Below are positions 1,039 to 64,000 of a stretch of DNA of 64,000 nt, piece after piece (positions within the stretch are counted from its first letter, which is position 1; each line of letters starts with the position of its first letter). The notes beneath the pieces are model-generated. The model saw only the letters and a program-made list of their open reading frames with translations. It was not told the DNA's origin and did no database searches. Location: positions 5,041,001 through 5,105,000 of the forward strand of contig NZ_CP058649.1 of the NCBI RefSeq assembly GCF_018141445.1. Reading direction: 5' to 3'. A program made the translations under genes and the position numbers. The DNA comes from Vallitalea pronyensis (GTDB lineage Bacteria; Bacillota; Clostridia; Lachnospirales; Vallitaleaceae).

Positions 1039-1863
1039 TTATTGAAATAAGGTTAAGATATTCTCTAAATCTTTAACGTTCGTATTTTCTAATAAAATAT
1101 CAATGGATTGAGACGAACTTGAAACCGCCTCGACTAAATATGAAAAATTATAATCTCCCGTACCATGATATGTTTCGATAATTTTGTTCTCCTGAACCCT
1201 AAAATCTTTTGAATGAACAATTAAAACATCATCTCCAAACAAATCAAATGCCTCTTTTAGAACAGATTCTTGCATTAAATAATTGTCACTTGTCAATAAA
1301 TTGACAGGGTCCAAAATCACCTTCACATATTTTGACTGCATATCTTTTATAATTTGTTTCATCTTTTTATTCGAATGAATGATATGATCTGCGACGCCCT
1401 CAATAGCAATCGTGACTTCCTTTTCTTGCGCTTCTATCAATAAAGCTTCCAAACTTCTTGCAAATACTAAATAAGCTTCTTTGGTATGATTATCTGGATG
1501 AAAGGCGTAGTCAGCTAAAACTGATCCTGTCTCCGTACCAATAACACGCGCATCCAAATCATTAGCATATGCTATATGGTTTTTGAATGTTTCTAGATGT
1601 TGTTCACGTATTCTTTTATTGGGGTGTGCATAATTCAGATAACAACCTAGTACAGCAATTGAGACGCATTCCCTTTTAAAATGATTGGCTATCATTTGCA
1701 ACGTTTCTTTTGCTATATAATCGCTGATACTATCAATGCCTTTAATCGCCTTATGGAGTGGCAATTGGACCGAATTCAGATTATTTTTTCTAACGATCTT
1801 TGCTAATTGATCACTCTCAAGTTTTCCAAAATCACTGGCACGTATACCTATACTATGAATCAT
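1039..1863 (-). CDS. Sugar phosphate isomerase/epimerase (xylose isomerase-like TIM barrel)
   Basis: About 274 residues with the pattern of the AP endonuclease 2 / xylose isomerase-like superfamily (PF01261): a VIGTETGS segment, AIEGVADHI, VILDPVNLL, VHSKDF and a late LLENTN segment, which place acidic and His metal ligands at strand ends. Such enzymes isomerise or epimerise sugars or keto-sugars in the cytoplasm. The ATG at 1863 is preferred because AGAAAGG lies about 8 bases upstream; an in-frame ATG at 1872 touches that ribosome site. The gene overlaps the end of the upstream GH105 gene, so the two are probably co-translated. The substrate is unknown, and a pectin-derived monosaccharide is inferred from context. 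Confidence 0.75.
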   Translation of the reverse strand: MIHSIGIRASDFGKLESDQLAKIVRKNNLNSVQLPLHKAIKGIDSISDYIAKETLQMIANHFKRECVSIAVLGCYLNYAHPNKRIREQHLETFKNHIAYANDLDARVIGTETGSVLADYAFHPDNHTKEAYLVFARSLEALLIEAQEKEVTIAIEGVADHIIHSNKKMKQIIKDMQSKYVKVILDPVNLLTSDNYLMQESVLKEAFDLFGDDVLIVHSKDFRVQENKIIETYHGTGDYNFSYLVEAVSSSSQSIDILLENTNVKDLENILTLFQ

Positions 1864-3022
1864 TGCAATCATTCCTTTCTAAAAAGTCTAGTGCTTCAAC
1901 ACATGCTAACATGGCCATTGCTTGACCGTAAGGTTTGGGTTCAATGGGTATATTTAAGTAAAAATCCAAACTATCTTTTCCCATTGCAGTTCCTCCGGAT
2001 ACTTGTTCTAAAACACCTTCCTCATTGATGTAAGTCAATACGCCATCTGTTGCTTTCATGGCACAGGTGGTGTATTTATCTTTAGCTTGGTCGTGATCTA
2101 TGATAGCACTATTCATTGCTTTGAAGATACCATAGGTAAACCCAGCTGAAGCACTTGTTTCCACATACGACTGCTTATGATCTAATAACGTATGCCATAA
2201 TCCAGACTGATCCTGTACCTTGCATAATGCTTCAAGTTGTTTTGTAAGGATGTTAATCATGTATCGATATACCGATTGACTGATGGCATAGTCTTTACAG
2301 ATATCCAGAAATTCTGGAATAAAAATGGTAATCCATGAGTTACCTCTTGCCCATTGTGCCTTAACAAAATTGTGATAACCATCAAAAGTCCACCCATGGT
2401 ACCAAAAACCTGTTTCTTTATTAAGAAGGTATTTACTATGTAATAAAAATTGATAGATTGCTTCATCAATATAGTGGGGCTTATGCCACACCACACCTGC
2501 TTTTGCTAAGAATAATACGGACATAAACAACGTATCATCCCATAATTCTTGTGCGTTATCAGCTTCACAGGTTAAATGGGATAAGCCTCCTTCATGGGTT
2601 CTTGGATGTTTTTCATACAGCCAATTTGCCCATTCCTTACATATTTCTACATACACGTTCTTTTTTGAAGGGTCAACATGTGGGTTTTCTGTTAGGCAAA
2701 GCAACGTTAGCATGGGTGCCATGGCATTAATATTTTTAGGTGGCAATCCATCTTCAATCCTTATGTCAAAATATTTTATGATTGTCTCCAGATGTTTCCG
2801 ATTACCTGTTAGTGCATACATTTTATAATAACCATATAACCCTACACCTTGAAACCAATCAAATAGTTCGATACGGCGAATATCATCTTCTTGATACCCC
2901 AACTTGGTCAAGGATTGTACCACGTTCATATTGGATTCATATAGAAAAGGCTCAAATGACCTTCCCAATCGGTCAAGTTTTTCAAATAATTGTTTTTTTA
3001 ACTTTTCATTATGTTTATTCAT
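1853..3022 (-). CDS. Unsaturated rhamnogalacturonyl hydrolase, GH105/GH88 family (copy 1)
   Basis: A 389-residue protein matching the YteR/YesR-type (alpha/alpha)6 barrel. This family removes the 4,5-unsaturated uronic acid left at the non-reducing end by pectin lyases. The WDDTLFM motif at residues 161-167 matches the W-x-D-T-L-x-M segment carrying the catalytic Asp of YteR. WFQGVGLYGYYK (56-67) and YHGWTFDGYHNFVKAQWARGN are also typical. There is no signal peptide, so it is cytoplasmic. The ATG at 3022 is chosen because AGAGAGG precedes it and it overlaps the PL22 stop by 8 bp. The frame opens further upstream inside the PL22 gene, but that extension is unlikely to be translated. A second copy lies at 14143-15249. 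Confidence 0.88.
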   Translation of the reverse strand: MNKHNEKLKKQLFEKLDRLGRSFEPFLYESNMNVVQSLTKLGYQEDDIRRIELFDWFQGVGLYGYYKMYALTGNRKHLETIIKYFDIRIEDGLPPKNINAMAPMLTLLCLTENPHVDPSKKNVYVEICKEWANWLYEKHPRTHEGGLSHLTCEADNAQELWDDTLFMSVLFLAKAGVVWHKPHYIDEAIYQFLLHSKYLLNKETGFWYHGWTFDGYHNFVKAQWARGNSWITIFIPEFLDICKDYAISQSVYRYMINILTKQLEALCKVQDQSGLWHTLLDHKQSYVETSASAGFTYGIFKAMNSAIIDHDQAKDKYTTCAMKATDGVLTYINEEGVLEQVSGGTAMGKDSLDFYLNIPIEPKPYGQAMAMLACVEALDFLERNDCNDS

Positions 3023-4226
3023 TCCTTTTATCCTCTCTAACGAATTCTTCAACAGATGCCATATAAATGGCTGGATATCCTTCCATATCCGAAACAAATA
3101 GGATATGGTTACTATCTGGCGTAAATACAGGATGGGGATGTGCATCTTGTGTGTTACCATAACTTTTCATTGAAGAATTGTGTAACAGTAATGGGATTGT
3201 TTTTTTCTTGTTTATATCAATAAAATAAAGATAAGGCTTTGCAGGGTAATCTGCATCTGCAATGATATAGTTATCCTTTGCATCGGTTATAAAATGTGAA
3301 CATCTGGGTAAGTCCATGATGGTCTCTTCCTTAAATGTATTCATATTAACAAATCGTAGGCTACCTTTATCTGAATCATCATGAGCAATTCTCACAAAGC
3401 CCAATTTTTCACCATCATGTGTAAAAAATTCATGGGATATAATCTCCCCTTCATAGGTATGTTTTCTTGGACAATGAATGTCTCTCGTGATGGTATTCAT
3501 TAACCATATCCGTGCATCTACTGTACCACCAAATCCTTCATGGCAATAAGATATCATATGATTGTCCCCTGGCTTAAATTGAGGATGACCTAACCATTGA
3601 TTCTTTTTTAAACCATATGCTTCATAATAAAAAGTGTCCAATAACATGTCTACTTCTTTAGATTCAATATGTATCTTTAATAACTTGGATCTTAAGCCTC
3701 TTTGTCCTTGAAGCATAAAATCTTCCCAATTGCTGTTATCTTTATTGACATAATCTGATTTTAGAAAATCAATGGTGACTAAATACTGCCCATCGGATGA
3801 ACCATCAACAACACTATAAGTTTCCCAGCCTACTTCTGGTTCATATAATACGTCCACATGACCACTTTCTATGTTTAAACGAACCACCTGATTATGGACA
3901 ACATAGATCAGGGTGGAACCATCTGGTCCAAATCTTGGTCCAAAATCTTGAAACCCATCGCTTTTATGATAAAAAGTGACTTGTTTAGCCGTTTCCTTCT
4001 CCATATCTAAGAGAAATATATTTCTATTACCTTCATGCTCTAAAATCATCAGGAGTGTGTTGCCTGCTTGGTTAAACATGTTTAAATAAAAATAAGGATA
4101 ATGAGCAAGTATGCCTTTAGGAGAAATTCGCCGATAGCCCTTTCCTGTACTTGTATCTTCAAATGTTTCAAATGGATAGGTAAATGTTGATTCACGATGT
4201 AAATGATTTGTATGTAATTTCTTCAT
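3015..4226 (-). CDS. ogl: Oligogalacturonate lyase, PL22 family
   Basis: A 403-residue beta-propeller protein close in pattern to oligogalacturonate lyases, which beta-eliminate short oligogalacturonides in the cytoplasm to 5-keto-4-deoxyuronate. The diagnostic segments are NQWLGHPQFKPGDNHMISYC, VDARIWLMN, HEFFTHDG and TQDAHPHP. In characterised PL22 enzymes the Mn site uses three His and a Gln; here Q360, H363 and H365 fit the Q-x2-H-x-H part and the His of HEFF is the likely fourth ligand. There is no signal peptide. It is the first gene of the operon PL22-GH105-isomerase-glycosidase and is divergent from the AraC gene, which is its likely regulator. Confidence 0.88.
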   Translation of the reverse strand: MKKLHTNHLHRESTFTYPFETFEDTSTGKGYRRISPKGILAHYPYFYLNMFNQAGNTLLMILEHEGNRNIFLLDMEKETAKQVTFYHKSDGFQDFGPRFGPDGSTLIYVVHNQVVRLNIESGHVDVLYEPEVGWETYSVVDGSSDGQYLVTIDFLKSDYVNKDNSNWEDFMLQGQRGLRSKLLKIHIESKEVDMLLDTFYYEAYGLKKNQWLGHPQFKPGDNHMISYCHEGFGGTVDARIWLMNTITRDIHCPRKHTYEGEIISHEFFTHDGEKLGFVRIAHDDSDKGSLRFVNMNTFKEETIMDLPRCSHFITDAKDNYIIADADYPAKPYLYFIDINKKKTIPLLLHNSSMKSYGNTQDAHPHPVFTPDSNHILFVSDMEGYPAIYMASVEEFVREDKRNE

Positions 4227-12616: not shown

Positions 12617-13978
12617 CTACTCAATTTTTGCTAATAAATCAGAAATACTATGCATATTTTGTCCTTCCAGGGTGATTAGATTTTCTTTATAGGGTTCTAA
12701 CAAGGGCGCATGAATATGCATCTTATGGATATTCTTTAACCAAAGAGCTGACATATCGAACAGGTCCCTTTCTTCTGGCCAAGTCACCATGAAATTATCC
12801 ATATAGAGATGATGAACGCCATCTGCGACACATGCGGTTCTTGCCACACGTGCCTCTTTGCTTTTATTGGAGAATTGTGCACTGGACCAATCTTTGTATA
12901 ATCGTGCATCCGAAAAGCCTTTATCATAGATCAGGTGGATGTCTCTTAAAAATATATGATTAAGATAAGCACCTTTTTCAGCTGTTAGCATAATCTTACC
13001 TTTTGTTCTAGCAATAAAATTGGTGATCTGCACATTGTTAATACTGCCTAATTTTGAATCTTCGTTCCTTCTTCTTAAATCAAGATGTATAGGAATCCCT
13101 AAACCAACGGATGGTGTACCATGGGTATCAGCAACAATATTCGTTATGGTGATGTCTTCCATTGAACCGCCTTCCAAGGCATAGATACCAATAGGCCTTG
13201 TGGCGTGATAGATAATACTGTTACTGAATGTAATCTGCCGCATATCATAAAAAGATTCCGTTGCACCAAGCTTAAAGCCCACACAATTTGAACGCAATAA
13301 ACAATTTGTTACGGTTATTCTTTCACAAACGCCAGCATCAGGGGTGGTTTTTAAGACAATGGCATCATCGCCTGCTTCTATATGACAGTCACTAATCATA
13401 ACATCTTGGCAACCATTGATATCAATAGCATCGGTATTCGGTCCTAAGATATGGTTTAAGATTCTTATGCTCCTCATGTTAATCTGTTTACAGACGTTCA
13501 GATGAATGGTCCAACCAGGAGAATCCAAGATGGTAAAATCATGAAAGGTAATATTTCTGCACTGGGTCAACTCAAACAAGGGGCTGACTCTCTGCTGTTT
13601 CTCTTTATACCAGCCTCTAGCATCTGGTTTGTCTTTCCAGAATAAAGGACCCTGTCCATTAATAATACCTTTACCATCAATGAGGATATTCTCACAATGA
13701 TCACCTATAAATAAATGATAAGGTTGTCGATCCTTATTATGTCCCTGTTCATTGACATCATAGTGGTGAAGATTCTCAGATGCCACTAATTCAGAGCCCA
13801 CTTCAAAATGAATATGTACATTGCTTTTTAGATAAAGATTGGATACGAGGTATTTGCCAGCAGGTATATAAATCATATCCCCGCCAGAATGATGTGCTTG
13901 ATTGATGGCTAACTGGAAGACTTCCGTGTTTAATGTTTTTCCATCATTGACGCCGCCCAGCTCTAATATATTTATCAT
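12617..13978 (-). CDS. Glycoside hydrolase family 28 (polygalacturonase-like)
   Basis: A 453-residue right-handed beta-helix protein. The GH28 acid residues are present: NTDAID (Asp183) and GDDAIVLK (Asp204, Asp205). The classical Gly-His-Gly and Arg-Ile-Lys motifs are replaced around SNCVGFKLG (230-238), a variant I associate with bacterial exo-acting or rhamnogalacturonan-type members. The N-terminus shows the pectate-lyase-3-like start with TEVFQLAINQA and MIYIPAGKYLVSNLYLKSNV. There is no signal peptide, so it acts on imported oligosaccharides. It stands between the GH105 gene and the HAD/transporter operon. The exact linkage cleaved cannot be told from sequence. Confidence 0.85.
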   Translation of the reverse strand: MINILELGGVNDGKTLNTEVFQLAINQAHHSGGDMIYIPAGKYLVSNLYLKSNVHIHFEVGSELVASENLHHYDVNEQGHNKDRQPYHLFIGDHCENILIDGKGIINGQGPLFWKDKPDARGWYKEKQQRVSPLFELTQCRNITFHDFTILDSPGWTIHLNVCKQINMRSIRILNHILGPNTDAIDINGCQDVMISDCHIEAGDDAIVLKTTPDAGVCERITVTNCLLRSNCVGFKLGATESFYDMRQITFSNSIIYHATRPIGIYALEGGSMEDITITNIVADTHGTPSVGLGIPIHLDLRRRNEDSKLGSINNVQITNFIARTKGKIMLTAEKGAYLNHIFLRDIHLIYDKGFSDARLYKDWSSAQFSNKSKEARVARTACVADGVHHLYMDNFMVTWPEERDLFDMSALWLKNIHKMHIHAPLLEPYKENLITLEGQNMHSISDLLAKIE

Positions 13979-14142: not shown

Positions 14143-15249
14143 TTATTGGGCTTTCTTGTTGGCATCTTGATACATTAAGCCTTCAATAAAAAATAACAGT
14201 GCTAGGGCTTGACCATATGGCATGGGCTCTAGGGGTATATTTTTATAAAAATCTTTGTGGTCTCTTCCCATGGGTGTACCATAGGATACCTGCTTAACCA
14301 CGCCATCTTTATCAATGCGCTTCAATATAGGTTCTATAGCCTTTAATGCAACTTTTCTATATTTTTCATCAAGTATGCCTAAGCGACATGCCTTTAGAAT
14401 ACCGTATCCAAATCCTGCTGTAGCGCTGGATTCTGCATAGGACTCCTTATCATCGATAAGGGTATGCCACATACCTTCTTCATTTTGGAATTTACGTAAA
14501 CTAATGACTTGTCTTTCAAGTGTATGCATGAGGTATTTTTTCATACTGTCTTCAAGTTCAATCATCTCTATAAATTCAGGAATGGCCATGGTAACCCAAC
14601 AATTTCCTCTTCCCCAAAGAGCTTTCACAAAATTATGACTGCCATTAAATGTCCACCCATGATACCATAGACCTGTTTTGGCATGCGCTAAGTACTTGAT
14701 GTGTAATAAAAATTGATATTTTGCTTCTTCTATGTAGGCCCGATTATCCGTCATCTTACCCATTTTAGCTAGAAATAAAACCGTCATAAAAAGTGTATCA
14801 TCCCAGAGTTCCTGGTCATTCAACGTGTCCGACGTCATATGCTGAAAACCACCCTCTTTGGTTCTTGGCAGTTCATGCATGATCCATTCTGCCCAAGAAA
14901 TACATGCATCTAAATAGGTTGGGTTTTTGTTAAATTCACATAAGTTGGCTAATGTTAACATGGGTGTTGTGGTATTAATATTCTTAGAGGGCAGCCCTTC
15001 TTTAAAACGTTCTTCATAATACTTCTCTAATGTTTCCAGATAATAGGTATTTTTTGTATGCTGAAACAGTTTCCAAAATCCATACAATCCCACGCCCTGA
15101 GTCCACTCCCAGAAACGATATTTTGAAATATCGTCACCACCAAGATTATTGTTCTCCATATTATCCAGAAACTTAACATCATCTGTATAGAGTACCTTTT
15201 TAAAGGATTCACTTAATACGTTGATTTTTTCTTCTAGGTTATTCTTCAT
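14143..15249 (-). CDS. Unsaturated rhamnogalacturonyl hydrolase, GH105/GH88 family (copy 2)
   Basis: A 368-residue (alpha/alpha)6-barrel enzyme like the copy at 1853-3022. WDDTLFM (149-155) carries the catalytic Asp; WTQGVGLYGFWK (49-60) and YHGWTFNGSHNFVKALWGRGN are shared with copy 1. It should hydrate and release unsaturated galacturonate from lyase products in the cytoplasm. Its start overlaps the end of the 825-aa gene by 11 bp, so the two are translationally coupled. That makes it likely that the unknown upstream protein produces or modifies its substrate. Two divergent copies in one locus suggest different oligosaccharide specificities. Confidence 0.88.
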   Translation of the reverse strand: MKNNLEEKINVLSESFKKVLYTDDVKFLDNMENNNLGGDDISKYRFWEWTQGVGLYGFWKLFQHTKNTYYLETLEKYYEERFKEGLPSKNINTTTPMLTLANLCEFNKNPTYLDACISWAEWIMHELPRTKEGGFQHMTSDTLNDQELWDDTLFMTVLFLAKMGKMTDNRAYIEEAKYQFLLHIKYLAHAKTGLWYHGWTFNGSHNFVKALWGRGNCWVTMAIPEFIEMIELEDSMKKYLMHTLERQVISLRKFQNEEGMWHTLIDDKESYAESSATAGFGYGILKACRLGILDEKYRKVALKAIEPILKRIDKDGVVKQVSYGTPMGRDHKDFYKNIPLEPMPYGQALALLFFIEGLMYQDANKKAQ

Positions 15250-17716
15250 GACTGCTCTCCTTATATACTCTTAAAACTTTTTCTAAATGTATTTCATGTT
15301 TCCCAGCTTGTTCAATAACCTTACCATTACGATATAAACACTGATCATCACGTATTTCCAAAGTTCCATAATGAGGATCGATTATTTTAAGTTCTGTCTC
15401 GCCATTATATTCAAATACTGTTTCTTTCATTGATTTTTTAAAGGCATGAAAGCTACCCCATTCTTTTTTTGCACCACATTTTATATATACGCCATGATGT
15501 CGTCCATTGGATATACATTCTTTTCCTGTGGCTGCACCATAGGTGGTTATCTTTACATCATGACTAAATCGTATATAGACATACGTATCCTTTACTTGAA
15601 GATATAATTCTTTTTCTTGACATATGATCTCATCCATTCGCTCAGGCATTATATACGTGTGAATAAAATGAACTTGCTGACTTTCATCGATATTAAATAC
15701 CATTAACATAGCATTTCTATATTGTCTAACTAGAGGCATCATGCCATTACCTGCCCAGTAACTGGGTCTTTCCTCACCACTCATAGGCTTTTCCCCGGGA
15801 TGGTTAATAAATAGTTGTGTACTATCACCACTCATTGCAAGGTTCATGATATGTTGCTGGTGTCCTTGTGTAAAGGGTTTGTAACCTTGAACACAACTCA
15901 GAGCATAATCATCGGTCGTATACGTATACAAATGAGCATGGCTTTCACCTTGGGTGAGCTCGATCACAGCACCTTCATCATCACCAAGTGCTATTTCCTG
16001 ATAGTAATCTGGAGGCACATAGGATGATATACCGTACATGACCACTGCTCGGATTCTAAAATTCATAAACCCTTTTCCTGAAGTTATCCATTCAATAAAG
16101 GATGGTTCTGATAATTCTCTTGCTTTTAGTGTTTCCTCATATACCCTTCCATAAGAAGAAGATATAATGCCATTATAATTATGATAAGCCATCAGCTTAA
16201 AAAGAAAATCTAAGGCTTTTTTTGCCAATTGCTTTATATCGTCATCAGGAGCCTGATCATATAGATTAAAAAAACCAATCATATCAATGGGGACATAGGT
16301 CACAGAGTTCCATTCACCCAGACCATATTGAAAGAAATGATCAAACCAATGTACTAGCCTTTTCTTACCTATTTCTTTCTGTTTTTTTCCCTTTCTACCG
16401 CTTACAGTAAATACGTCATCTTCAAAGTAATCACCTGCCAAGTATTGTCCTACATGAAAGAGTAAGGCATGATTTTCGCTAAAATACCACATGACATCAT
16501 TACCTGGTTCATCAATCCAATATCTAAAGTCCAACAGTACCTTTTTTATTTGACAAACCGTTTCATCGGATAAAAAGTTTCTATAGTGTTTCAATAAATG
16601 AATCATCGTACCTAAATAAAAGTCAGCGCAGTCCTCTTTTTTTTCAATTTTTTTAATCGCTGTTTCTAATATTTCTTGAGCTTCATCCGTGAGTCTACCT
16701 TGGGTTTCTAGAATAGCAATGGTTTTCATAAGGAAATTTTCACCATGCTTGGATAAAAACACAAGCGCTTGTTTTTTTCTTTCATAAATGGTGTTTGCCT
16801 GCATATCATTAGATATCTTATGGCAATAATTACCAACCACCAACCTTCTCTTAATGGCTAAACGTCCAATGTCAATCTTCACATCCACTTTAAACATACC
16901 TACAGCTACGTCCAAAACATGACCTACACATAGCGAATGCGTACCTTTTTTCACTGTGTATTGTCGTATCTTATGCCTATCTTCTGGGCTTGGTAAACCA
17001 AGTATCTGTAGCTCTATATCGGATTGGACCAAATCAGGATTATAGTTGAGTATCATATGGCCTTCAGCATAAACATCTCGCTCAAAATATAAGCTTTCCA
17101 GAAAATTTTCCATGTGCTGAACCATTGTATCATCCTCATTCATATGAACAATACCTACTAATGGCTCTGTATCCACATATCTTAATTCTATATAGAAAAT
17201 AACATCTCTTTCTGCCAGCTCATCGGCATAAAGATGGAGTGTATTTTCTCCTTTTTTGCATGTAATCTTAATCTTCTTTAATGACCCTATATTTCTAGAA
17301 TAGGGGGTAAACGATGCTGCTAATTCATCATTGACCCAAAGCTTTACCCCACCACATGTATAAAGTTCAAATGCCAATTCGCAATCTCTTTCCACATAAA
17401 TCTTTGTCTCACCTGAAAAAGATATATAGTGGGGTGTATGAATAAAGGTTGTAAATTCAACACGATTATTTTCAAATGGAAAATAAAAATCTGTCAGACA
17501 TACCTTCTTCACATCGCCAAGAGAAATTTGGTTAATTGGCATCTTCTCTAAAAATGCTTCTCTTACAGGATAAAGAACAGGTATATACTCTTCCCCTGGA
17601 TTAACCTCCTCATGAAAGCATTTGGATTCTGATTGAAAGGGGGTTCTTTTTATCTTGGAGATGAACCAACGATTGACTGCTTGACTTTGATTAATTACAT
17701 ACTTATACTGATGCAT
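15239..17716 (-). CDS. Uncharacterised 825-aa pectin-locus protein, possible lyase-like enzyme
   Basis: I do not recognise the family. By inspection, residues about 65-190 look like a beta-sandwich with a carbohydrate-binding flavour (GGVKLWVNDELAASF, LHLYADELAERD). Residues about 310-580 are helical and resemble an (alpha/alpha) toroid, with YFSENHALLFHVGQYLAGD (411-429), GEWNS (467-471) and SSSYGRVY (519-526). The C-terminal 240 residues look beta-rich. This order resembles toroid polysaccharide lyases, in which Asn, His and Tyr catalyse. N415, H416 and Y522/Y526 are candidates, but this is inference. No signal peptide is seen. Coupled to the GH105 gene and close to GH28, it probably acts on the same oligosaccharides. 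Confidence 0.6.
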   Translation of the reverse strand: MHQYKYVINQSQAVNRWFISKIKRTPFQSESKCFHEEVNPGEEYIPVLYPVREAFLEKMPINQISLGDVKKVCLTDFYFPFENNRVEFTTFIHTPHYISFSGETKIYVERDCELAFELYTCGGVKLWVNDELAASFTPYSRNIGSLKKIKITCKKGENTLHLYADELAERDVIFYIELRYVDTEPLVGIVHMNEDDTMVQHMENFLESLYFERDVYAEGHMILNYNPDLVQSDIELQILGLPSPEDRHKIRQYTVKKGTHSLCVGHVLDVAVGMFKVDVKIDIGRLAIKRRLVVGNYCHKISNDMQANTIYERKKQALVFLSKHGENFLMKTIAILETQGRLTDEAQEILETAIKKIEKKEDCADFYLGTMIHLLKHYRNFLSDETVCQIKKVLLDFRYWIDEPGNDVMWYFSENHALLFHVGQYLAGDYFEDDVFTVSGRKGKKQKEIGKKRLVHWFDHFFQYGLGEWNSVTYVPIDMIGFFNLYDQAPDDDIKQLAKKALDFLFKLMAYHNYNGIISSSYGRVYEETLKARELSEPSFIEWITSGKGFMNFRIRAVVMYGISSYVPPDYYQEIALGDDEGAVIELTQGESHAHLYTYTTDDYALSCVQGYKPFTQGHQQHIMNLAMSGDSTQLFINHPGEKPMSGEERPSYWAGNGMMPLVRQYRNAMLMVFNIDESQQVHFIHTYIMPERMDEIICQEKELYLQVKDTYVYIRFSHDVKITTYGAATGKECISNGRHHGVYIKCGAKKEWGSFHAFKKSMKETVFEYNGETELKIIDPHYGTLEIRDDQCLYRNGKVIEQAGKHEIHLEKVLRVYKESSHEE

Positions 17717-17947: not shown

Positions 17948-18685
17948 CTATGATTTAAAACACTGACTTCTAATGTTATCTACTGCTTTTATCATTTTAC
18001 ATATCAAAGCACTGCGACTACCTTCAAGATGCTGTTGGAAAGTTCCTGCTCCCAGTATGGCTATGGGCTTTTCCTCGCCACCATATAGGGGTATACCAAT
18101 ACGAAGGATATTTTTCTTCAGATACCCATCATCCACCATAATGCCTTCCTGCTGAAATTGTGCTTCCATTCGCTGTAAATCATGAAGTGACATCTTTGTA
18201 TCATCATGGTAGCTTGCCATGATCTGTTCTTTTAAGGATGCATTCAGATGCATCACATAGGGCATCCCCCAAACCATGGAACGGGCATATGGATAGCTCT
18301 CCCCAATAGCCATCATGGTCAAATTATCTTTATGAGCATGTTTCGTTAATACAATATATTGATCTTCTGTATACACAATGAGCAAAAGGCTCACTCCAAA
18401 TGTCTCACTAATTTCTACTAAATATTGCTTTGCAATTTGTTTCAGATGCTGCCATGGATTATTTTTCTGGGCTAAGCTAAAAAACTTTAAACCAAGAATA
18501 TATTTATTATCCAAGTTCTTTTGAACATAATCACCATGTCTCAGGGTATGCAAATAGCGATTCAGGCTACTAACATTGTATCCTGTTAAACTTTGTAGTT
18601 GGTTAAAACTTACCTGCTCTTCCTTAGCAATAATTTCTAGAATCTTAAGTCCTTTTTCCAGTGCAGGAGCTGGCGTAATGGCCAT
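17948..18685 (-). CDS. IclR-family transcriptional regulator
   Basis: About 245 residues. PALEKGLKILEIIAKEE followed by VSFNQLQSLTGYNVSSLNRYL is the standard IclR winged-helix start, and the remainder (about 75-245) fits the IclR effector domain. KdgR, a pectin regulator of enterobacteria, is from this family, so sensing of a pectin intermediate is plausible. The ATG at 18685 gives the conserved N-terminus; AGAAAGG is 13 bases upstream, and in-frame ATG/GTG codons at 18697/18694 lie closer to it, so the exact start is uncertain. It follows the MFS gene by 60-70 bp and is followed by a terminator. Confidence 0.85.
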   Translation of the reverse strand: MAITPAPALEKGLKILEIIAKEEQVSFNQLQSLTGYNVSSLNRYLHTLRHGDYVQKNLDNKYILGLKFFSLAQKNNPWQHLKQIAKQYLVEISETFGVSLLLIVYTEDQYIVLTKHAHKDNLTMMAIGESYPYARSMVWGMPYVMHLNASLKEQIMASYHDDTKMSLHDLQRMEAQFQQEGIMVDDGYLKKNILRIGIPLYGGEEKPIAILGAGTFQQHLEGSRSALICKMIKAVDNIRSQCFKS

Positions 18686-18757
18686 ACATATCACCATACC
18701 TTTCTACTTCTTGTACGCATATACCACTTATTTCTTCCCCGAAAGATCATATGCTAT

Positions 18758-19990
18758 CTACCATTTTCTTCTCATAATATAGAAAATAGCCAGTAGGTAT
18801 AATAACCCAGCTATAGCAAATAATACTTGAAATATATCCAGAGACCATAGAGTCCATTCTTGATTAATACCTCGAATAATCATGGTACTGATGTTGGTAC
18901 TTACAAATGAAAACACAGCCATGATAGCTGCATTGACAGCCAAATAGGATAATCGATACGCATGGTCTGTTAATTGTAGATTAACATTAAATTTAGCAAT
19001 ATTTAACCCTATCATAAATATACCATTTAAAAAGATAAAAATAAAGTAAATCACGTGGGTTTCTAAGGCTATGAATAGCCATAAAAAGTGAGATACAGCA
19101 AATAATAGACCCGTGTAGCCCATGATCTTCTTCCATCCATAATGGTCCACACCTGCTCCCCAAAGCTTAGCAAGTAACAGCTTGACGATAGCTGTAATGC
19201 TTGAAACAAGAGCAATGTAACTATAGGATAACCGTAGATGTGAAATGGCATAGACATTGAAAAAAGGTCTTGCAAAACTCCATGCAAACATCCATAAAAG
19301 TGAAAATATCATGAAACGACGATACTTCTTATCCTTTAAAGGCATGACCAATAACTTATTCAGAGGTCTATTACTCTTTGTTTCTAAAGGGTGGTCATGA
19401 AGCTTGGTAATAATCCATAATTCGCCTAATGCAAAGACTATACTAACGCAAAAAATAATCATAAATAAGCCAGACGTATGTACATAATGATCAAGAATTT
19501 TACCCAGTATAATTGGTAGTAATATACCAATGGCATTTGCTATAAGGTTACGGGTTGCATAATATCTTCCCTTTCTCTCTAATGGAATAATCTGATCATT
19601 CCATGCAAGAAATGTCCCACCCATAAATGCGGTAAAGGATAGAGAACTGAATATAATAAATAGGAGAATAACATATCGATAACTCTGAAACCAAGGTAGT
19701 AACATCATGAAATAAAAGATAACAAATCGTAGGGACCTGGCTACTAAAGTCATACGTTTAGGACTTTTAAATTTTTCATAGAACATGGGTGAAAATAGTT
19801 GAAGCACATTGGTCAGTGCAATAAAACCTACCACATACCCAATCTGATAGTCCATTAAACCTAGAAAAAGCATGTAACTGGTTAAAAACAATCCTCCTGG
19901 ATTAGCAAAAAATTCAAACATACTTCGCATGGTAATACTCAATAAAAATGTATCCTTCTGCTGTAATTTCTTTGTGTTTAATTTTATCAA
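18758..19990 (-). CDS. Major facilitator superfamily transporter
   Basis: A 410-residue protein with about 12 hydrophobic segments and MFS-like loops between helices (FYEKFKSPKRMTLVAR after helix 2; AKLWGAGVDHYGWKKIMG in the second half). It begins with a TTG at 19990 preceded by GGAAG about 11 bases upstream; no better start is evident. It lies upstream of the IclR gene on the same strand, so the pair may form a regulated sugar or uronate uptake unit, or an efflux system. The substrate cannot be read from sequence. Confidence 0.8.
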   Translation of the reverse strand: MIKLNTKKLQQKDTFLLSITMRSMFEFFANPGGLFLTSYMLFLGLMDYQIGYVVGFIALTNVLQLFSPMFYEKFKSPKRMTLVARSLRFVIFYFMMLLPWFQSYRYVILLFIIFSSLSFTAFMGGTFLAWNDQIIPLERKGRYYATRNLIANAIGILLPIILGKILDHYVHTSGLFMIIFCVSIVFALGELWIITKLHDHPLETKSNRPLNKLLVMPLKDKKYRRFMIFSLLWMFAWSFARPFFNVYAISHLRLSYSYIALVSSITAIVKLLLAKLWGAGVDHYGWKKIMGYTGLLFAVSHFLWLFIALETHVIYFIFIFLNGIFMIGLNIAKFNVNLQLTDHAYRLSYLAVNAAIMAVFSFVSTNISTMIIRGINQEWTLWSLDIFQVLFAIAGLLYLLAIFYIMRRKW

Positions 19991-21277: not shown

Positions 21278-24200
21278 CTATTCGAATGTAATGGTTATAC
21301 CTTTTATTTTCTTATCTCGGAGCGCTTTTGCCATGTCCTCTTCTAAGTATGCTTTATGATATCTTTTACCATCAATGATGATCTCAGTGATGGTAGCTTT
21401 GGCGTCTCCAAAAGTATCTTTCTTCTTTCTATTAATATAGGTAACATCTGTAGTACTAAATAACCGAAATGTAATTTTACCCTCATGGTCAAAGAGACTT
21501 CCTTTTAAAACAGGTGCAAATGTAAAGATCAAGTGACCCTTCTTCATAGAAAATCCTTTTTCTCCAACAAACATATACAGCCACATACTCAACACTTCTG
21601 CTGTAGAGCCACTTAACCTTGCAAAGAATCCTTGCCCGATAATCTGCTCATCTGGATTAACACTGCTTACAATGAATGACGAGTTCTCTGTGGTTGGTCT
21701 ACCATAGATGATTGGGTCCATAAATGGCACGAGATTTGTGGTCATATCTTCATAAAAATGATCATATAACTTTGCTTTAAGGACACTTAATAAGTACTTA
21801 TACGTCATATGTAAGAAGATGGATTCCCTTTCAAGCCAGCCAGGTGTAAATGCTCGAATACGCCCTATTTCCATGGTTTCATTTTCTAGACTTTCAGATG
21901 TTTTATACATCCTTAATGCTTGATCATAGATATCTGTCAACCTCATTTTTTTATATAATACACCTGCGGCTTTTGGATCCAATGTCTTCAAATATCTGGC
22001 TGGTGCTTCTAAAAATAGAGGTAACGCTCTTGCATTAAACTTTAAGGGTTTGGCAGCTTGTAATCCAAAGTTTGTTTGGCTGTTTAACAGGTCATATTCC
22101 AAGACTTCCATAATAAAGTAACTTGGCAATATGCCCTCCCCAACAGTTAAGGCTTTTTGTATGCCCTGCTCAAGTTTTATTTCCATTGCATTAAGTATAT
22201 GAATGATTTCTTTTAGTTCAACATCACATTCTTGAGAAGAAAGTTGATACCTGGTTTTATAACGATAGTCTTCTTTAATGCCATTACATTGATCCCAAAA
22301 GGTTAAAGCATCTTGAATGTCCATGATATTCCCTATCTGTTTAGCTAACTCATAGATATCCTCTAGCACAAGGATATGGCTCATGTTTATACCTATTGCC
22401 ATCAGCTCTTCTTTTAAAAAAGTAATGGACCGCTTTAATTCAACGGTTTCACTCATGCCTGAGCCAAAAAGTCCAGGTAACCCATTCAGGGCATCATTCC
22501 ATCCAGGTTTATCCCCTTCCATCTCTATGCCCATGCCAAAAGGGTCGAGATTCATAAACTTCGTTAAACATAACACGAGCATTTTATTAAATAGATTGGT
22601 TTGAACTTTTTTTCCATGACCATCAACTAACCATTCATATGGGTATTTTTTCTTTTTAGCGATACCCTTATATTGCCGAACTTTATGGTCATCAGTAAGT
22701 CCATATTTTTTATGTCGGGGTAAGACATAATAGGGGGCATTATAAAAACCATAATCTTTTCTCTCCAGCAATAATGCTTCCATTTTATCAGGATACATAT
22801 ATTTAAAACTGTCTACTAAATCTTGATTATAGGTAAAATGATCACTCCAAAAGCCTTCAGCAAAATCAACATCGATTTCTTGGGAAGCATGGGATAGAAC
22901 AAGTTCTAAAACAGGTCGGATATGCGCATCTTTCCTAAGATGTGATTGGATAACATGGGCTAGACTACCTGGGGTAAATGGCTGTTCAATCATATCAGAA
23001 ATGGCATCCATAAGACCTTGGTTTATCAAGACATCTTGCTTTTCAAGAGCATCCACCCAAGCCCCTTTACCCTTTCTGTCCATGATGAATTTTGTTCCTT
23101 TAATGCTTAGTGGGTTATAGCCATCAGCTTGTATTAAGCTATAAAATAGCCAAATATTGAAATCAAACACTTCCGGTTCAAACACTAAATCATTTCTTCT
23201 GTTTTGATTCATATCCCTAAAATTACCATTCCCTTGAGAATAATAGGATGGTTCTATGGAAAAGAAATTATAATCCCTTTCTTGGTCACCATGCTTTCTT
23301 GAAAAAACATGATAAACATGTTTATTTTCTTTTCCTTGAAATAATAAAGGCTTTCCACCTCGCATGACATTATCCAGATAGCTTTGTCGCATATATTGAT
23401 CAAATACTTTATTGCCCGTCGTCATCTGAATAGAACTGCATAGCTGATTAATTTCCTTCTTAGCTGCTTTCAATTGGAACGTTACCAAGTTTCTTAAATC
23501 CATTGTTTTTCCAAATTGATCCACTTCTTCGTAAGTATGACAGAATCCAAAAACACTGTCCATATACGCTGTTTTGTTCGGTTGAAGGTGAAGTTGTTTT
23601 AATTGAAATGCTGATGGTACTTTGTTGGCATACACTTGTTTTTTACAGGTTAAGTCCAAATAATCCCTCTGAATAAAACCAACAGGCTGTTGCAAATCTG
23701 TTCGATAACCAAATACAATATCTGGGTCATAGATGGTATACACTGAATCATCATGGATACTTTCATTGATATAAAAATAGCCTTCTCGAATGTCTTTTAC
23801 AACGGATTCATCTTTGGAGCTGGAACGAAATTTATAATAGGGTATCTTCTGGTCTGTTTGACTAACCTCCATAAAGCTTCGCATTAAGTTACTCATTTCC
23901 TTATAAACACTGTTTTCAACACCATAAGGTAAAAGAGCTGGCATCCCATCAATCATTTCAATATGTTTTTCTTCATCCCCTAGGTTGTGAAGTTCAACCC
24001 TTCTTACAAGTCCCCCAAAAGGAAGATTAACAAGTGTTGAATACGTGACTTTAATAACTAAAGATTCTCCAAGTATATTCTCTTGTATAAAAAAGCCGTC
24101 TTTCTCGATACCCATGCTTCTATTGGATGCATCACTTGTCTGATTAAAAGGTTCAAGAACACGGGTTTCATGTTTATCCAATATTTTTATGAATGTACGA

Positions 24201-24436
24201 AAGCCATAAGTACTTACATATTGGTAGGCACTATTAGCTGGAAAAAACTCCATGATTGGGTGATTTTTATCTTCAATACCAAAACTGCTAATACCTTGCC
24301 CTCTATTCACGTAAAATGCCCATATGGGTATGCCCTTTTCACCAGCAATACCTGGTAAAAAACTGCTGAAAGGTTTTGCCTTGTGATAATTATGAATGAT
24401 AAATCGTTCTTTGTTGTCAAAATAGTATGGTTCCAT
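21278..24436 (-). CDS. GH94-like glycoside phosphorylase
   Basis: About 1052 residues. The N-terminal beta-sandwich has GIPIWAFYVNRGQGISSFG and a PFGGLVRRVELHN segment. A long (alpha/alpha)6 region follows with KPGWNDALNGLPGLFGSG, in which Asp648 matches the GH94 catalytic acid position, and the end is beta-rich. Length and motifs resemble the large Listeria lin1839-type 1,2-beta-oligoglucan phosphorylases (about 1086 aa) more than classic cellobiose phosphorylases (about 800 aa). Such enzymes split glucosides with phosphate to give alpha-glucose-1-phosphate. The ATG at 24436 has AAAGGAG 6 bases upstream; earlier in-frame ATGs lack this. It is downstream of a matching sugar importer. The beta-1,2 specificity is inference. 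Confidence 0.75.
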   Translation of the reverse strand: MEPYYFDNKERFIIHNYHKAKPFSSFLPGIAGEKGIPIWAFYVNRGQGISSFGIEDKNHPIMEFFPANSAYQYVSTYGFRTFIKILDKHETRVLEPFNQTSDASNRSMGIEKDGFFIQENILGESLVIKVTYSTLVNLPFGGLVRRVELHNLGDEEKHIEMIDGMPALLPYGVENSVYKEMSNLMRSFMEVSQTDQKIPYYKFRSSSKDESVVKDIREGYFYINESIHDDSVYTIYDPDIVFGYRTDLQQPVGFIQRDYLDLTCKKQVYANKVPSAFQLKQLHLQPNKTAYMDSVFGFCHTYEEVDQFGKTMDLRNLVTFQLKAAKKEINQLCSSIQMTTGNKVFDQYMRQSYLDNVMRGGKPLLFQGKENKHVYHVFSRKHGDQERDYNFFSIEPSYYSQGNGNFRDMNQNRRNDLVFEPEVFDFNIWLFYSLIQADGYNPLSIKGTKFIMDRKGKGAWVDALEKQDVLINQGLMDAISDMIEQPFTPGSLAHVIQSHLRKDAHIRPVLELVLSHASQEIDVDFAEGFWSDHFTYNQDLVDSFKYMYPDKMEALLLERKDYGFYNAPYYVLPRHKKYGLTDDHKVRQYKGIAKKKKYPYEWLVDGHGKKVQTNLFNKMLVLCLTKFMNLDPFGMGIEMEGDKPGWNDALNGLPGLFGSGMSETVELKRSITFLKEELMAIGINMSHILVLEDIYELAKQIGNIMDIQDALTFWDQCNGIKEDYRYKTRYQLSSQECDVELKEIIHILNAMEIKLEQGIQKALTVGEGILPSYFIMEVLEYDLLNSQTNFGLQAAKPLKFNARALPLFLEAPARYLKTLDPKAAGVLYKKMRLTDIYDQALRMYKTSESLENETMEIGRIRAFTPGWLERESIFLHMTYKYLLSVLKAKLYDHFYEDMTTNLVPFMDPIIYGRPTTENSSFIVSSVNPDEQIIGQGFFARLSGSTAEVLSMWLYMFVGEKGFSMKKGHLIFTFAPVLKGSLFDHEGKITFRLFSTTDVTYINRKKKDTFGDAKATITEIIIDGKRYHKAYLEEDMAKALRDKKIKGITITFE

Positions 24437-24506
24437 ATTGAGCTCCTTTATTAACTTATGATTCATTTTGGTTGCTACATCCATCTTGCCAATGTGTGTA
24501 GTCTTT

Positions 24507-62214: not shown

Positions 62215-62964
62215 TTATATAAATGCTTGCCCACCGTTAATTTGAATAATTTCACCTGTTAAAAAGGATGCCTTTTCACTGACTAAGAATTCAATAACCG
62301 ATGCAACCTCACTTGGTTGACCAAATCGTTGTAATAAGATGTTCTTTTTCCAAGAATTGAAAAGGTTGATATCTTTTTCTTTTGTGGCTTGGTGGAATGG
62401 TGTGTCAATGGTTCCTGGTGAAACCGCATTCACCCTTATACCATACTCGGCTAAATCCTTAGCCAAAGCTCTTGTAAGTGTTGTTACAGCCGCTTTTGAA
62501 GCACCGTAGATACCAGCTCCAGGTCCGCCTGAATTCCATCCTGCAATGGATGTAAAGTTCACGATGGAAGGTGCATCACTTTTTTTAAGTAATGGAATGG
62601 CAGCTCTTGTTACATAGAACACACTATCAAGATTAAGAGCCATGACTTTTCGATAAAAACTTGTTTCCATGTCTTCGAAGCGACTTCTGCCACCAAGACC
62701 ACCAGCATTATTAACCAGTACATCAATTTTATCGTAGGTATCACTGATTTTCTTAAAGCTGTCAATCACCTGTTGCTCATTGGTCACATCAAATAAGTAA
62801 AAATCCACATCAATGTTACAATCTTTTAATGTTTTTAAAGCTGTTTCAGCCTGTGCTTCATCAATACCATTTAAAATAATTTTATAACCATTTTGCCCTA
62901 GATTTTTGGCTGTTTCTAAGCCAATTCCACCTGTTCCTCCTGTTATTAAAGCATATCTATTCAT
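62215..62964 (-). CDS. Short-chain dehydrogenase, probable uronate/DEH reductase
   Basis: A 249-residue classical SDR: cofactor motif TGGTGGIGLET, NNAGG, catalytic Ser in NFTSIAGW and Tyr-x3-Lys in YGASKAAV, and substrate-loop VSPGTIDTPF. The start overlaps the KdgF-like stop by one base (TAATG), so they are coupled. The operon lyase, KdgF and SDR suggests that it reduces the linearised 4-deoxy-5-keto-uronate or its isomer (KduD or DEH-reductase role). The exact substrate is inferred. Confidence 0.85.
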   Translation of the reverse strand: MNRYALITGGTGGIGLETAKNLGQNGYKIILNGIDEAQAETALKTLKDCNIDVDFYLFDVTNEQQVIDSFKKISDTYDKIDVLVNNAGGLGGRSRFEDMETSFYRKVMALNLDSVFYVTRAAIPLLKKSDAPSIVNFTSIAGWNSGGPGAGIYGASKAAVTTLTRALAKDLAEYGIRVNAVSPGTIDTPFHQATKEKDINLFNSWKKNILLQRFGQPSEVASVIEFLVSEKASFLTGEIIQINGGQAFI

Positions 62965-63320: not shown

Positions 63321-64000
63321 CTATACCTCCTTCTTTAAGGTCCATTTTAATTGATACCTTGCTTGTTTTGCCTTCGCACGAATGATGATTGTTGTTCTTG
63401 ATGATGTAACCGGGTTATCGGGAGATCGACCAACAAACAATGCTTGTTGATTTAATTGGATGCTGCTTGTTAGGATTTGGCTGCCTATTTTCCAATCCAA
63501 ATGTATCATGGATTCATCGGCTATCACCCTTTGAACATCTCTAATATGCTGATAACCGTTGTCCTTATAGCCTAGGGAGGCTGGTTCTGTTGTATGCTTT
63601 GACATCAATTCCCCTTCTACGTGGAAAAAAAAGTCATAGGTATGTTCTTTTTCTGAATCCACTTGGAATTCATCTGTGTACCCATTGTCAAAGAGCTCAA
63701 GCTTTCTCCTATAATCCACGCCAGGATAAACATCTCTCACCCTTGTATCTATGCTATTTGATTGAAATGCCAAGCATTCCCCTGCTTCCATTGACACATG
63801 GTTCTTTCCATCTACAACCACCGTATTATGTGACACACTCATACGATGCCACTCGTTACACAAAGCATTACCATAGCCAGAGTTGGATAAATCACGGCTA
63901 AGACAGTCCTCACCAATGACCACTTCAATGTTCATCTTATCAGGATGGGCATGAGAAGGACCGTTATGACCATATTTACAAAATATGTTGATGGTTTTAT
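63321..64000 (-). CDS. Heparinase II/III-like polysaccharide lyase, N-terminus beyond window
   Basis: The visible C-terminal part is about 226 residues, entering from the right edge. HNGPSHAHPDKMNIEV is the conserved heparinase II/III (PF07940) motif at the junction of the toroid and beta-sandwich, followed by SVSHNTVVVDGKN and a beta-rich remainder. Such enzymes (PL12/15/17/21) release unsaturated uronic acids. The following KdgF and SDR genes are exactly what is needed to process that product. Alginate, ulvan-type or glycosaminoglycan oligosaccharides are all possible substrates; the family cannot be fixed without the N-terminal half. Confidence 0.85.
   Translation of the reverse strand, partial: KTINIFCKYGHNGPSHAHPDKMNIEVVIGEDCLSRDLSNSGYGNALCNEWHRMSVSHNTVVVDGKNHVSMEAGECLAFQSNSIDTRVRDVYPGVDYRRKLELFDNGYTDEFQVDSEKEHTYDFFFHVEGELMSKHTTEPASLGYKDNGYQHIRDVQRVIADESMIHLDWKIGSQILTSSIQLNQQALFVGRSPDNPVTSSRTTIIIRAKAKQARYQLKWTLKKEV

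Follow-up and report, generated by a model that had tools for sequence, protein, structure and literature searches.

A candidate polysaccharide lyase whose gene overlaps a GH105 gene in a pectin locus of Vallitalea pronyensis

Several families of polysaccharide lyases (PLs) are built around a helical toroid, and enzymes of PL8, PL12, PL15, PL21, PL33, and PL39 have a common fold and a common set of Asn, His, and Tyr residues (for PL33, according to PMC11848413). We analyzed P825, a protein of 825 amino acids encoded on the minus strand at positions 15239-17716 of a 64,000-nucleotide stretch of the Vallitalea pronyensis genome (contig NZ_CP058649.1, positions 5,041,001 to 5,105,000; hereafter the window), which has this fold and residue set in its predicted model and no profile match to the toroid lyases. 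Its gene has 825 open codons, encodes no evident N-terminal signal sequence, and overlaps by 11 base pairs (15239-15249) the downstream gene for a GH105/GH88 unsaturated uronyl hydrolase (14143-15249, minus strand; Pfam E 7.2e-98). Judged by its predicted fold, invariant residues, and gene linkage, P825 is very probably a polysaccharide or oligosaccharide lyase that acts by β-elimination.

The PL17 oligoalginate lyase Alg17C (4nei, 4ok4, and 4ojz), an exolytic enzyme that acts on oligosaccharides, and its relatives have the fold predicted for P825, with 8-11% identity in the rows listed and no Pfam match on the side of P825. PL17 lyases sit in alginate loci, unlike P825 and its relatives, whose neighbors are GH105, GH28, and kduI. 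The PL35 GAGases (GAGase II, 8khv; GAGase VII, 8khw), 10-12% identical to P825 over the aligned part, also rank near the top of the structural matches to its toroid and β-sandwich; P825 differs from them by an additional N-terminal domain of the GH2 type, an adjoining GH105 gene, and no evident N-terminal signal. PL26 exo-rhamnogalacturonan lyase (PcRGLX) is a three-domain enzyme that releases unsaturated rhamnogalacturonan products of the kind that GH105 uses, and a scan of 13 proteins (P825 and 12 diverse relatives) found no PcRGLX Pfam model and no other lyase model at E≤1. PL26, PL27, and PL38 are absent among the structure matches listed, which says nothing against them. PL22 acts on pectic oligosaccharides and is encoded in the same window as P825, from which it is distinct by sequence, since the window PL22 has PF14583 and P825 does not.

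Predicted fold and candidate active site of P825

The AlphaFold2 model of P825 had a mean predicted local distance difference test score (pLDDT) of 92.7 and a predicted template modeling score (pTM) of 0.92, and residues 300-825 modeled alone had a pLDDT of 92.2. The model agrees with the order of β-sandwich, helical toroid, and β-rich end that the initial annotation had proposed for this protein from its sequence. An N-terminal jelly roll (residues 9-184; 17165-17692, minus strand, as for all parts of P825) resembles the sugar-binding domain of GH2 β-glucuronidases and PA14 domains (6mvg_A, Z 9.3, root mean square deviation (rmsd) 3.3, 123 residues aligned; 6m8m, Z 9.8, rmsd 3.8, 142 aligned). 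It is followed by a helical (α/α) toroid (residues about 305-575; 15992-16804), placed by the predicted models and structure matches, and by a C-terminal antiparallel β-sandwich (residues about 576-805; 15302-15991), placed by the same models and by lyase matches that span residues 305-805. An (α/α)n toroid followed by an antiparallel β-sandwich is what defines the fold class of the toroid lyases, and this is the arrangement predicted for P825, as the likeness to toroid lyases claimed by the initial annotation had implied.

When the whole model was searched with Foldseek, GH2 enzymes dominated the list through the N-terminal domain, so residues 300-825 were folded and searched alone. All eight matches at E≤1e-3 were then polysaccharide lyases: 9o3q (a chondroitinase), 8khw and 8khv (PL35), 4ok4, 7bjt, and 4ojz (PL17), 3a0o (PL15), and 6jp4 (PL39), with PL numbers taken from the entry titles or from a table in PMC12088678. 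The matches at ranks 9 and 10 were also lyases, and the first non-lyase was a GH63 enzyme (E 8.8e-3). The 50 rows of a VIA-align search with the same residues held 49 lyase entries, many of them of one protein, and human dermatan sulfate epimerase 1; the best row had Z 11.0 and an rmsd of 5.5 Å over 403 aligned residues. The coverage of both domains and the position of the non-lyase Foldseek rows, clearly behind, support the lyase match of the modeled residues.

Candidate catalytic residues were sought in an alignment of 74 sequences, made up of P825, 12 diverse relatives, and 61 nearer ones; the last came from 80 loci, of which the other 19, mostly close kin, were omitted by choice, without a computed cut-off. 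E414, N415, H416, E468, Y474, G523, and R524 are invariant in all 74. The SENH (413-416) and SSSYGRVY (519-526) stretches singled out by the initial annotation are present, and of the three residues that it expected to be conserved within them, Asn415 and His416 (16469-16474), a candidate carboxylate neutralizer and base, are invariant. This conservation is partly built into the 62-row alignment because the search pattern demands [ST]ENH; Asn415 and His416 are also found in 13/13 of the set of P825 and 12 relatives that was obtained independently of that pattern. The third, Tyr522, is ruled out as a catalytic residue, since this position is Tyr in just 14 of the 74 sequences, Phe in 29, Gln in 11, and His in 8. 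The GR.Y motif within SSSYGRVY would instead be accounted for by Arg524 (74/74) and Tyr526 (72/74), encoded at 16139-16147.

Tyr474 (16295-16297; 74/74), in an E-W-N-S-x-x-Y motif, is a candidate catalytic acid/base. In PMC12088678, the paired neutralizer Asn and Tyr residues of known toroid lyases are numbered 192/246 in GAGase II and 187/241 in GAGase VII (54 residues apart), 240/294 in heparinase III, 336/390 in exo-heparinase, 201/258 in PL17 (57 apart), 186/239 in PL39, 183/242 in PL8 entry 1RWA, and 236/299 in PL23; PMC11848413 gives 238/291 for PL33. These printed numbers correspond to spacings of 53-57 residues in six families, 59 in PL8, and 63 in PL23. The spacing between Asn415 and Tyr474 is 59, equal to that of 1RWA and inside the 53-63 range. 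Because Tyr474 is invariant and has this spacing, it is, by analogy of spacing and fold, the likely catalytic tyrosine of P825. Most, though not all, of the toroid lyase families also have an active-site His that comes from the β-sandwich. In P825, His686 (15659-15661; His in 73/74, with one gap) is a candidate catalytic His, and His639 (67/74) and His622 (58/74) are rival candidates.

Linkage to GH105 and spread of P825 relatives

A scan of 84,980 species genomes with a profile pattern requiring [ST]ENH gave 560 pattern matches, and tblastn, with E-values calculated against just the candidate stretches, confirmed a P825 relative in 549 of them. A single-protein query in a first scan had matched 85 stretches, none of which was confirmed as a relative, and the alignment query was used instead. 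The best 80 of the 549 confirmed stretches (the named loci) come from Bacillota, Halanaerobium, Spirochaetota, Rhizobiales, and Kosakonia, among others. They are rich in related species (Paenibacillus, Lacrimispora, Hungatella, and Mesorhizobium), so that counts over these loci are not independent events.

The coupling to GH105 suggested by the initial annotation extends well beyond the V. pronyensis genome. By tblastn, 67 of the 80 named loci have GH105 on the same strand, as do 49 of the 55 in which each flank of the P825 relative measures 7 kb or more. The chance of finding a GH105 gene in one stretch of this size in the V. pronyensis genome is ∼1.5% (5 GH88-family matches, one of them partial). 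Open reading frame (ORF) calls place GH105 immediately downstream (gap ≤300 bp) in 40 of 79 loci, overlapping in 25; these ORFs were taken from the first possible start codon, so some of the overlaps are overstated. The total count by ORFs was lower (60/79), partly because long antisense ORFs masked genes in GC-rich loci. In one locus (L015, 8040-11525, minus strand), a P825 relative is fused to a GH105 domain in a single frame of 1161 amino acids. In an even sample of the phylum, GH88-family genes scored over the cut-off in 3 of 5 genomes that carry a P825 relative, compared with 40 of the 398 genomes sampled; one of these three genomes has its GH88 genes and its P825 relative on different contigs. 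Published expression data for Paenibacillus amylolyticus 27C64 were also compared with the P825-linked GH105 of locus L097 (40.6 kDa from the first start); the table rows examined in PMC6339884 hold no GH105 of the same mass, a neutral result.

Other genes recur beside P825 relatives. Recurrent neighbor clusters, which are loose families, comprise ABC permeases (69 and 67 of 92 sources, with the window counted), a solute-binding protein, and an AraC regulator (62 each). Across the 80 loci, kduI is found in 8, kduD in 2, and GH28 in just 3. KduI and KduD act on unsaturated uronates in their open form. In six loci from Hyphomicrobiales, the end of kduI is 30-60 bases ahead of the P825 match. The Phyllobacterium order is GH88-kduI-P825-ABC-kduD, and in Pseudosulfitobacter kduD, kduI, and P825 are on one strand, with a TRAP transporter, and GH88 is on the opposite strand; in both of these alphaproteobacteria, kduI comes directly before the P825 relative and kduD is within about 5 kb of it. 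No other lyase is annotated in these two stretches (18 and 22 kb, with incomplete gene tables). Because KduI and KduD handle unsaturated uronates, a lyase is expected at such loci, and the P825 relative is the sole candidate in view. The Catenovulum order is P825-GH88-MFS, and plasmids of R. johnstonii, R. leguminosarum, and R. etli have P825-GH88-GH28-UgpC-permeases.

Relatives of P825 were found on 200 of 72,556 plasmid records (123 from Rhizobium, 40 from Pseudosulfitobacter, and single or few from Catenovulum and Haladaptatus). Annotated regions were examined for 7 of the 200, with gene tables that are incomplete by their own description; among the rows listed with a product name, that name is "hypothetical protein" or "hypothetical conserved protein". 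Matches occur in 5/398 genomes of the phylum sample (V. pronyensis included) and 5/22 genomes of its family, a distribution that is thus widespread but patchy, and hundreds of species probably carry a P825-type gene.

Several members of the family depart from the P825 form. The V. pronyensis genome encodes a second member of 677 amino acids (contig C1, about 3476200-3479100; L016, 8540-11612) that has no N-terminal domain and adjoins a divergent GH88-family gene and a GH2 gene, so both family members of this genome adjoin a GH88-family gene. An 18-kb stretch of Eisenbergiella tayi (L044, 5543-17390) has three P825 relatives, and another locus (L030, 7165-11319) has a tandem pair of adjoining short relatives, the first with a strongly hydrophobic N-terminus. 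A haloarchaeal short relative on a Haladaptatus plasmid (L146, 7782-9767) is surrounded by Gfo/Idh/MocA oxidoreductases, and this short form possibly acts on another substrate.

A simple hydrophobicity scan found a signal-like N-terminal hydrophobic stretch in none of 79 loci, where some of the N-termini scanned start upstream of the true one because the first start codon was used; 2 of the 12 diverse relatives do show such a stretch. Given that no signal is evident and that an uptake transporter often adjoins, the most likely site of action is the cytoplasm, with imported oligosaccharides as substrates.

Proposed reaction and alternative functions

The fold, the invariant residues, the apparent absence of an N-terminal signal, and the gene linkage are computed results, from which we infer the chemistry, what single residues do, that the oligosaccharides acted on are imported, and the substrate. 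In the proposed reaction, an oligosaccharide that has been imported and carries a 4-linked uronic acid would bind between the helical toroid and the C-terminal β-sandwich, where its carboxylate would be neutralized by Asn415, with His416 or Arg524. Tyr474, aided by His416 or a β-sandwich His, would take the C5 proton and/or protonate the leaving oxygen, and the resulting β-elimination would break the chain, leaving the new non-reducing end with a 4,5-unsaturated uronic acid. Hydrolysis of this residue by the GH105 enzyme from the overlapping next gene would follow, after which KduI/KduD-type enzymes would take over. A rhamnogalacturonan or an oligogalacturonide is a plausible substrate of P825, and at this locus a pectic oligosaccharide of the rhamnogalacturonan or galacturonan type is our leading guess, to which we give an even chance.

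Several observations weigh against the assignment of P825 as a lyase that feeds GH105. The Foldseek TM-scores to lyases were just 0.36-0.41, and the VIA-align Z of ∼11 is below the ∼13 recommended by the tool when helical repeats are compared, with the caution that helical models may reach such Z values through a common arrangement. Comparison by hhalign of P825-family profiles of 62 and 74 sequences with 30 Hepar_II_III_C proteins gave probabilities of 0.4% and 0.1%, respectively. The equivalence of residues between P825 and known lyases is one of spacing and fold, and the β-sandwich catalytic His is uncertain, since position 622 is His in only 58/74 sequences and Thr in the relatives from Phyllobacterium and Pseudosulfitobacter, both of which are linked to kduI. 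There is no kduI match within the window. Among the diverse relatives, GH105 is near in 4 of 11 loci and not in the other 7; no GH88-family match (E≤1e-3) was obtained in 2 of the 5 genomes that carry a relative in the phylum sample, and no GH88 is annotated near the Haladaptatus short relative. The family may therefore hold branches with another partner or substrate. The V. pronyensis genome also has one short PL9-type match above the cut-off (29 bits), a possible other source of lyase products. Finally, the rarity of GH28 and the algal or diatom-associated carriers make it less likely that the family as a whole acts on pectin.

In the strongest alternative, P825 is still a lyase, its substrate is not pectin but a glycan of the glucuronate type, such as glucuronan, arabinogalactan caps, or algal glycans, and the pectin setting of the window is incidental. 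GH28 is near in just 3 of the 80 loci, carriers include a Roseobacter from diatom cultures, the locus of alga-associated Catenovulum has GH2, β-galactosidase, and fucosidase genes, the V. pronyensis paralog lies beside GH2, and the N-terminal domain of P825 is like that of GH2 β-glucuronidases. Set against these observations, the P825-GH105-GH28 order is common to the window and the three Rhizobium plasmids examined, and the window also carries PL22 and a second GH105. In addition, with the PglB model the GH28 of R. johnstonii scores 708 bits, above the cut-off of 600, and the window GH28 scores 221.5 bits, below it; a review reports that Agrobacterium PglB participates in polygalacturonate degradation (PMC6683767). 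We regard this alternative as tenable, at roughly one chance in three.

P825 could also be a glycoside hydrolase with an (α/α) toroid that takes off a saturated sugar before GH105 acts, a possibility that draws on weak Foldseek matches to GH63, GH127, and GH146 enzymes; such matches start at E 8.8e-3, behind ten lyase chains, and the invariant set is Asn-His/Tyr/Arg, so that we consider this function improbable. More doubtful still is a function in uronyl C5 epimerization, as in human dermatan sulfate epimerase 1, since GH105, KduI, and KduD, the products of the partner genes, act on unsaturated uronates, and epimerases make none. Its basis is the common fold (6hzn_A, Z 10.3, rmsd 5.6, 437 aligned) and a catalytic set that lyases share with the human epimerase according to PMC11848413. 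A non-catalytic carbohydrate-binding partner of GH105, as the N-terminal jelly roll, the GH105 overlap, and the one GH105 fusion might suggest, is the least probable function, as the invariant polar residues sit, by spacing, at lyase active-site positions.

The surrounding locus and the place of the P825 family

The genes around P825 agree with the pectin locus recognized by the initial annotation. On the minus strand, as for all genes given here, the GH105 gene is followed by a GH28 hydrolase gene (12617-13978), the third in the P825-GH105-GH28 order, and genes for an IclR-type regulator (17948-18697) and an MFS transporter (18758-19990), both identified by library matches, lie upstream of P825. 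A PL22 oligogalacturonate lyase gene (3015-4226) and the second GH105 gene (1853-3160) are ∼11-13 kb away from P825. The GGAG-like ribosome site for the GH105 gene at 14143-15249 falls within the 3' end of P825, and the nearest solved structures of its product (3qwt, 3pmm, and 4xuv) carry GH105 names. An NCBIfam label, "beta-galactosidase BglB", was given to this protein and to Rhizobium and Kosakonia GH105 proteins; it looks misleading for a GH88/GH105 enzyme of uronate operons. No tandem repeats were found in the P825 gene, and promoter- and terminator-like sites were no more numerous than in shuffled sequences.

The claim that PL22 is the only other lyase of the window needs a qualification at the right edge, where a heparinase II/III-type match (contig C1, 5104591-5105022; window 63591 onward) was found; judged by this match, the gene that crosses the edge (63321-63998) is a further toroid lyase-like gene. 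A weak kduD-like match lies at 62230-62796. Across the V. pronyensis genome, the Pfam models tried for PL1, PL11, and PL26, including PF21345 for the second domain of PcRGLX, gave no match (PL3, PL4, and PL10 were not searched). Elsewhere in the window, a protein of 1068 amino acids (21278-24484) has no meaningful Pfam family (best E 0.18) and scores 103 bits with a GH149 β-1,3-glucan phosphorylase model, below the cut-off of 1150; it may be an unclassified disaccharide phosphorylase.

As the initial annotation supposed, P825 fits no sequence family, as far as the libraries searched show. It matched no Pfam family at E≤1, and so neither heparinase II/III (PF07940) nor PF14583, and the NCBIfam search gave one chance match only (E 0.11). 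Searches of Protein Data Bank sequences with the protein and with the family profile gave only chance matches (for the protein, one at E 1), and among open-licence PMC articles no paper was recognizable as describing this family. We consider it fairly likely that P825 founds a new PL family, cytoplasmic and with a GH2-type N-terminal domain, that feeds GH105 from within the cell and has carriers in Bacillota, Spirochaetota, Halanaerobium, rhizobial megaplasmids, gammaproteobacteria, and, as the short form, a haloarchaeon. This reading of novelty is drawn from the Pfam and NCBIfam libraries, and an existing CAZy number is possible. Such a family would belong to a known fold class and bring no new kind of chemistry.

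If P825 is such a lyase, the family would account for GH105/kduI operons that have no recognized lyase. GH105 requires an unsaturated substrate, and a P825 lyase would therefore close a gap in GH105 pathways. It would also add an enzymatic tool for work on oligosaccharides of pectic or other uronate type, and would reveal a sugar-acid pathway in rhizobial plasmids and in gut, soil, and marine bacteria, where P825-type genes on annotated plasmids are labeled hypothetical despite their uronate-type operon setting. P825 may thus be a missing step in the bacterial use of plant and algal sugar acids.

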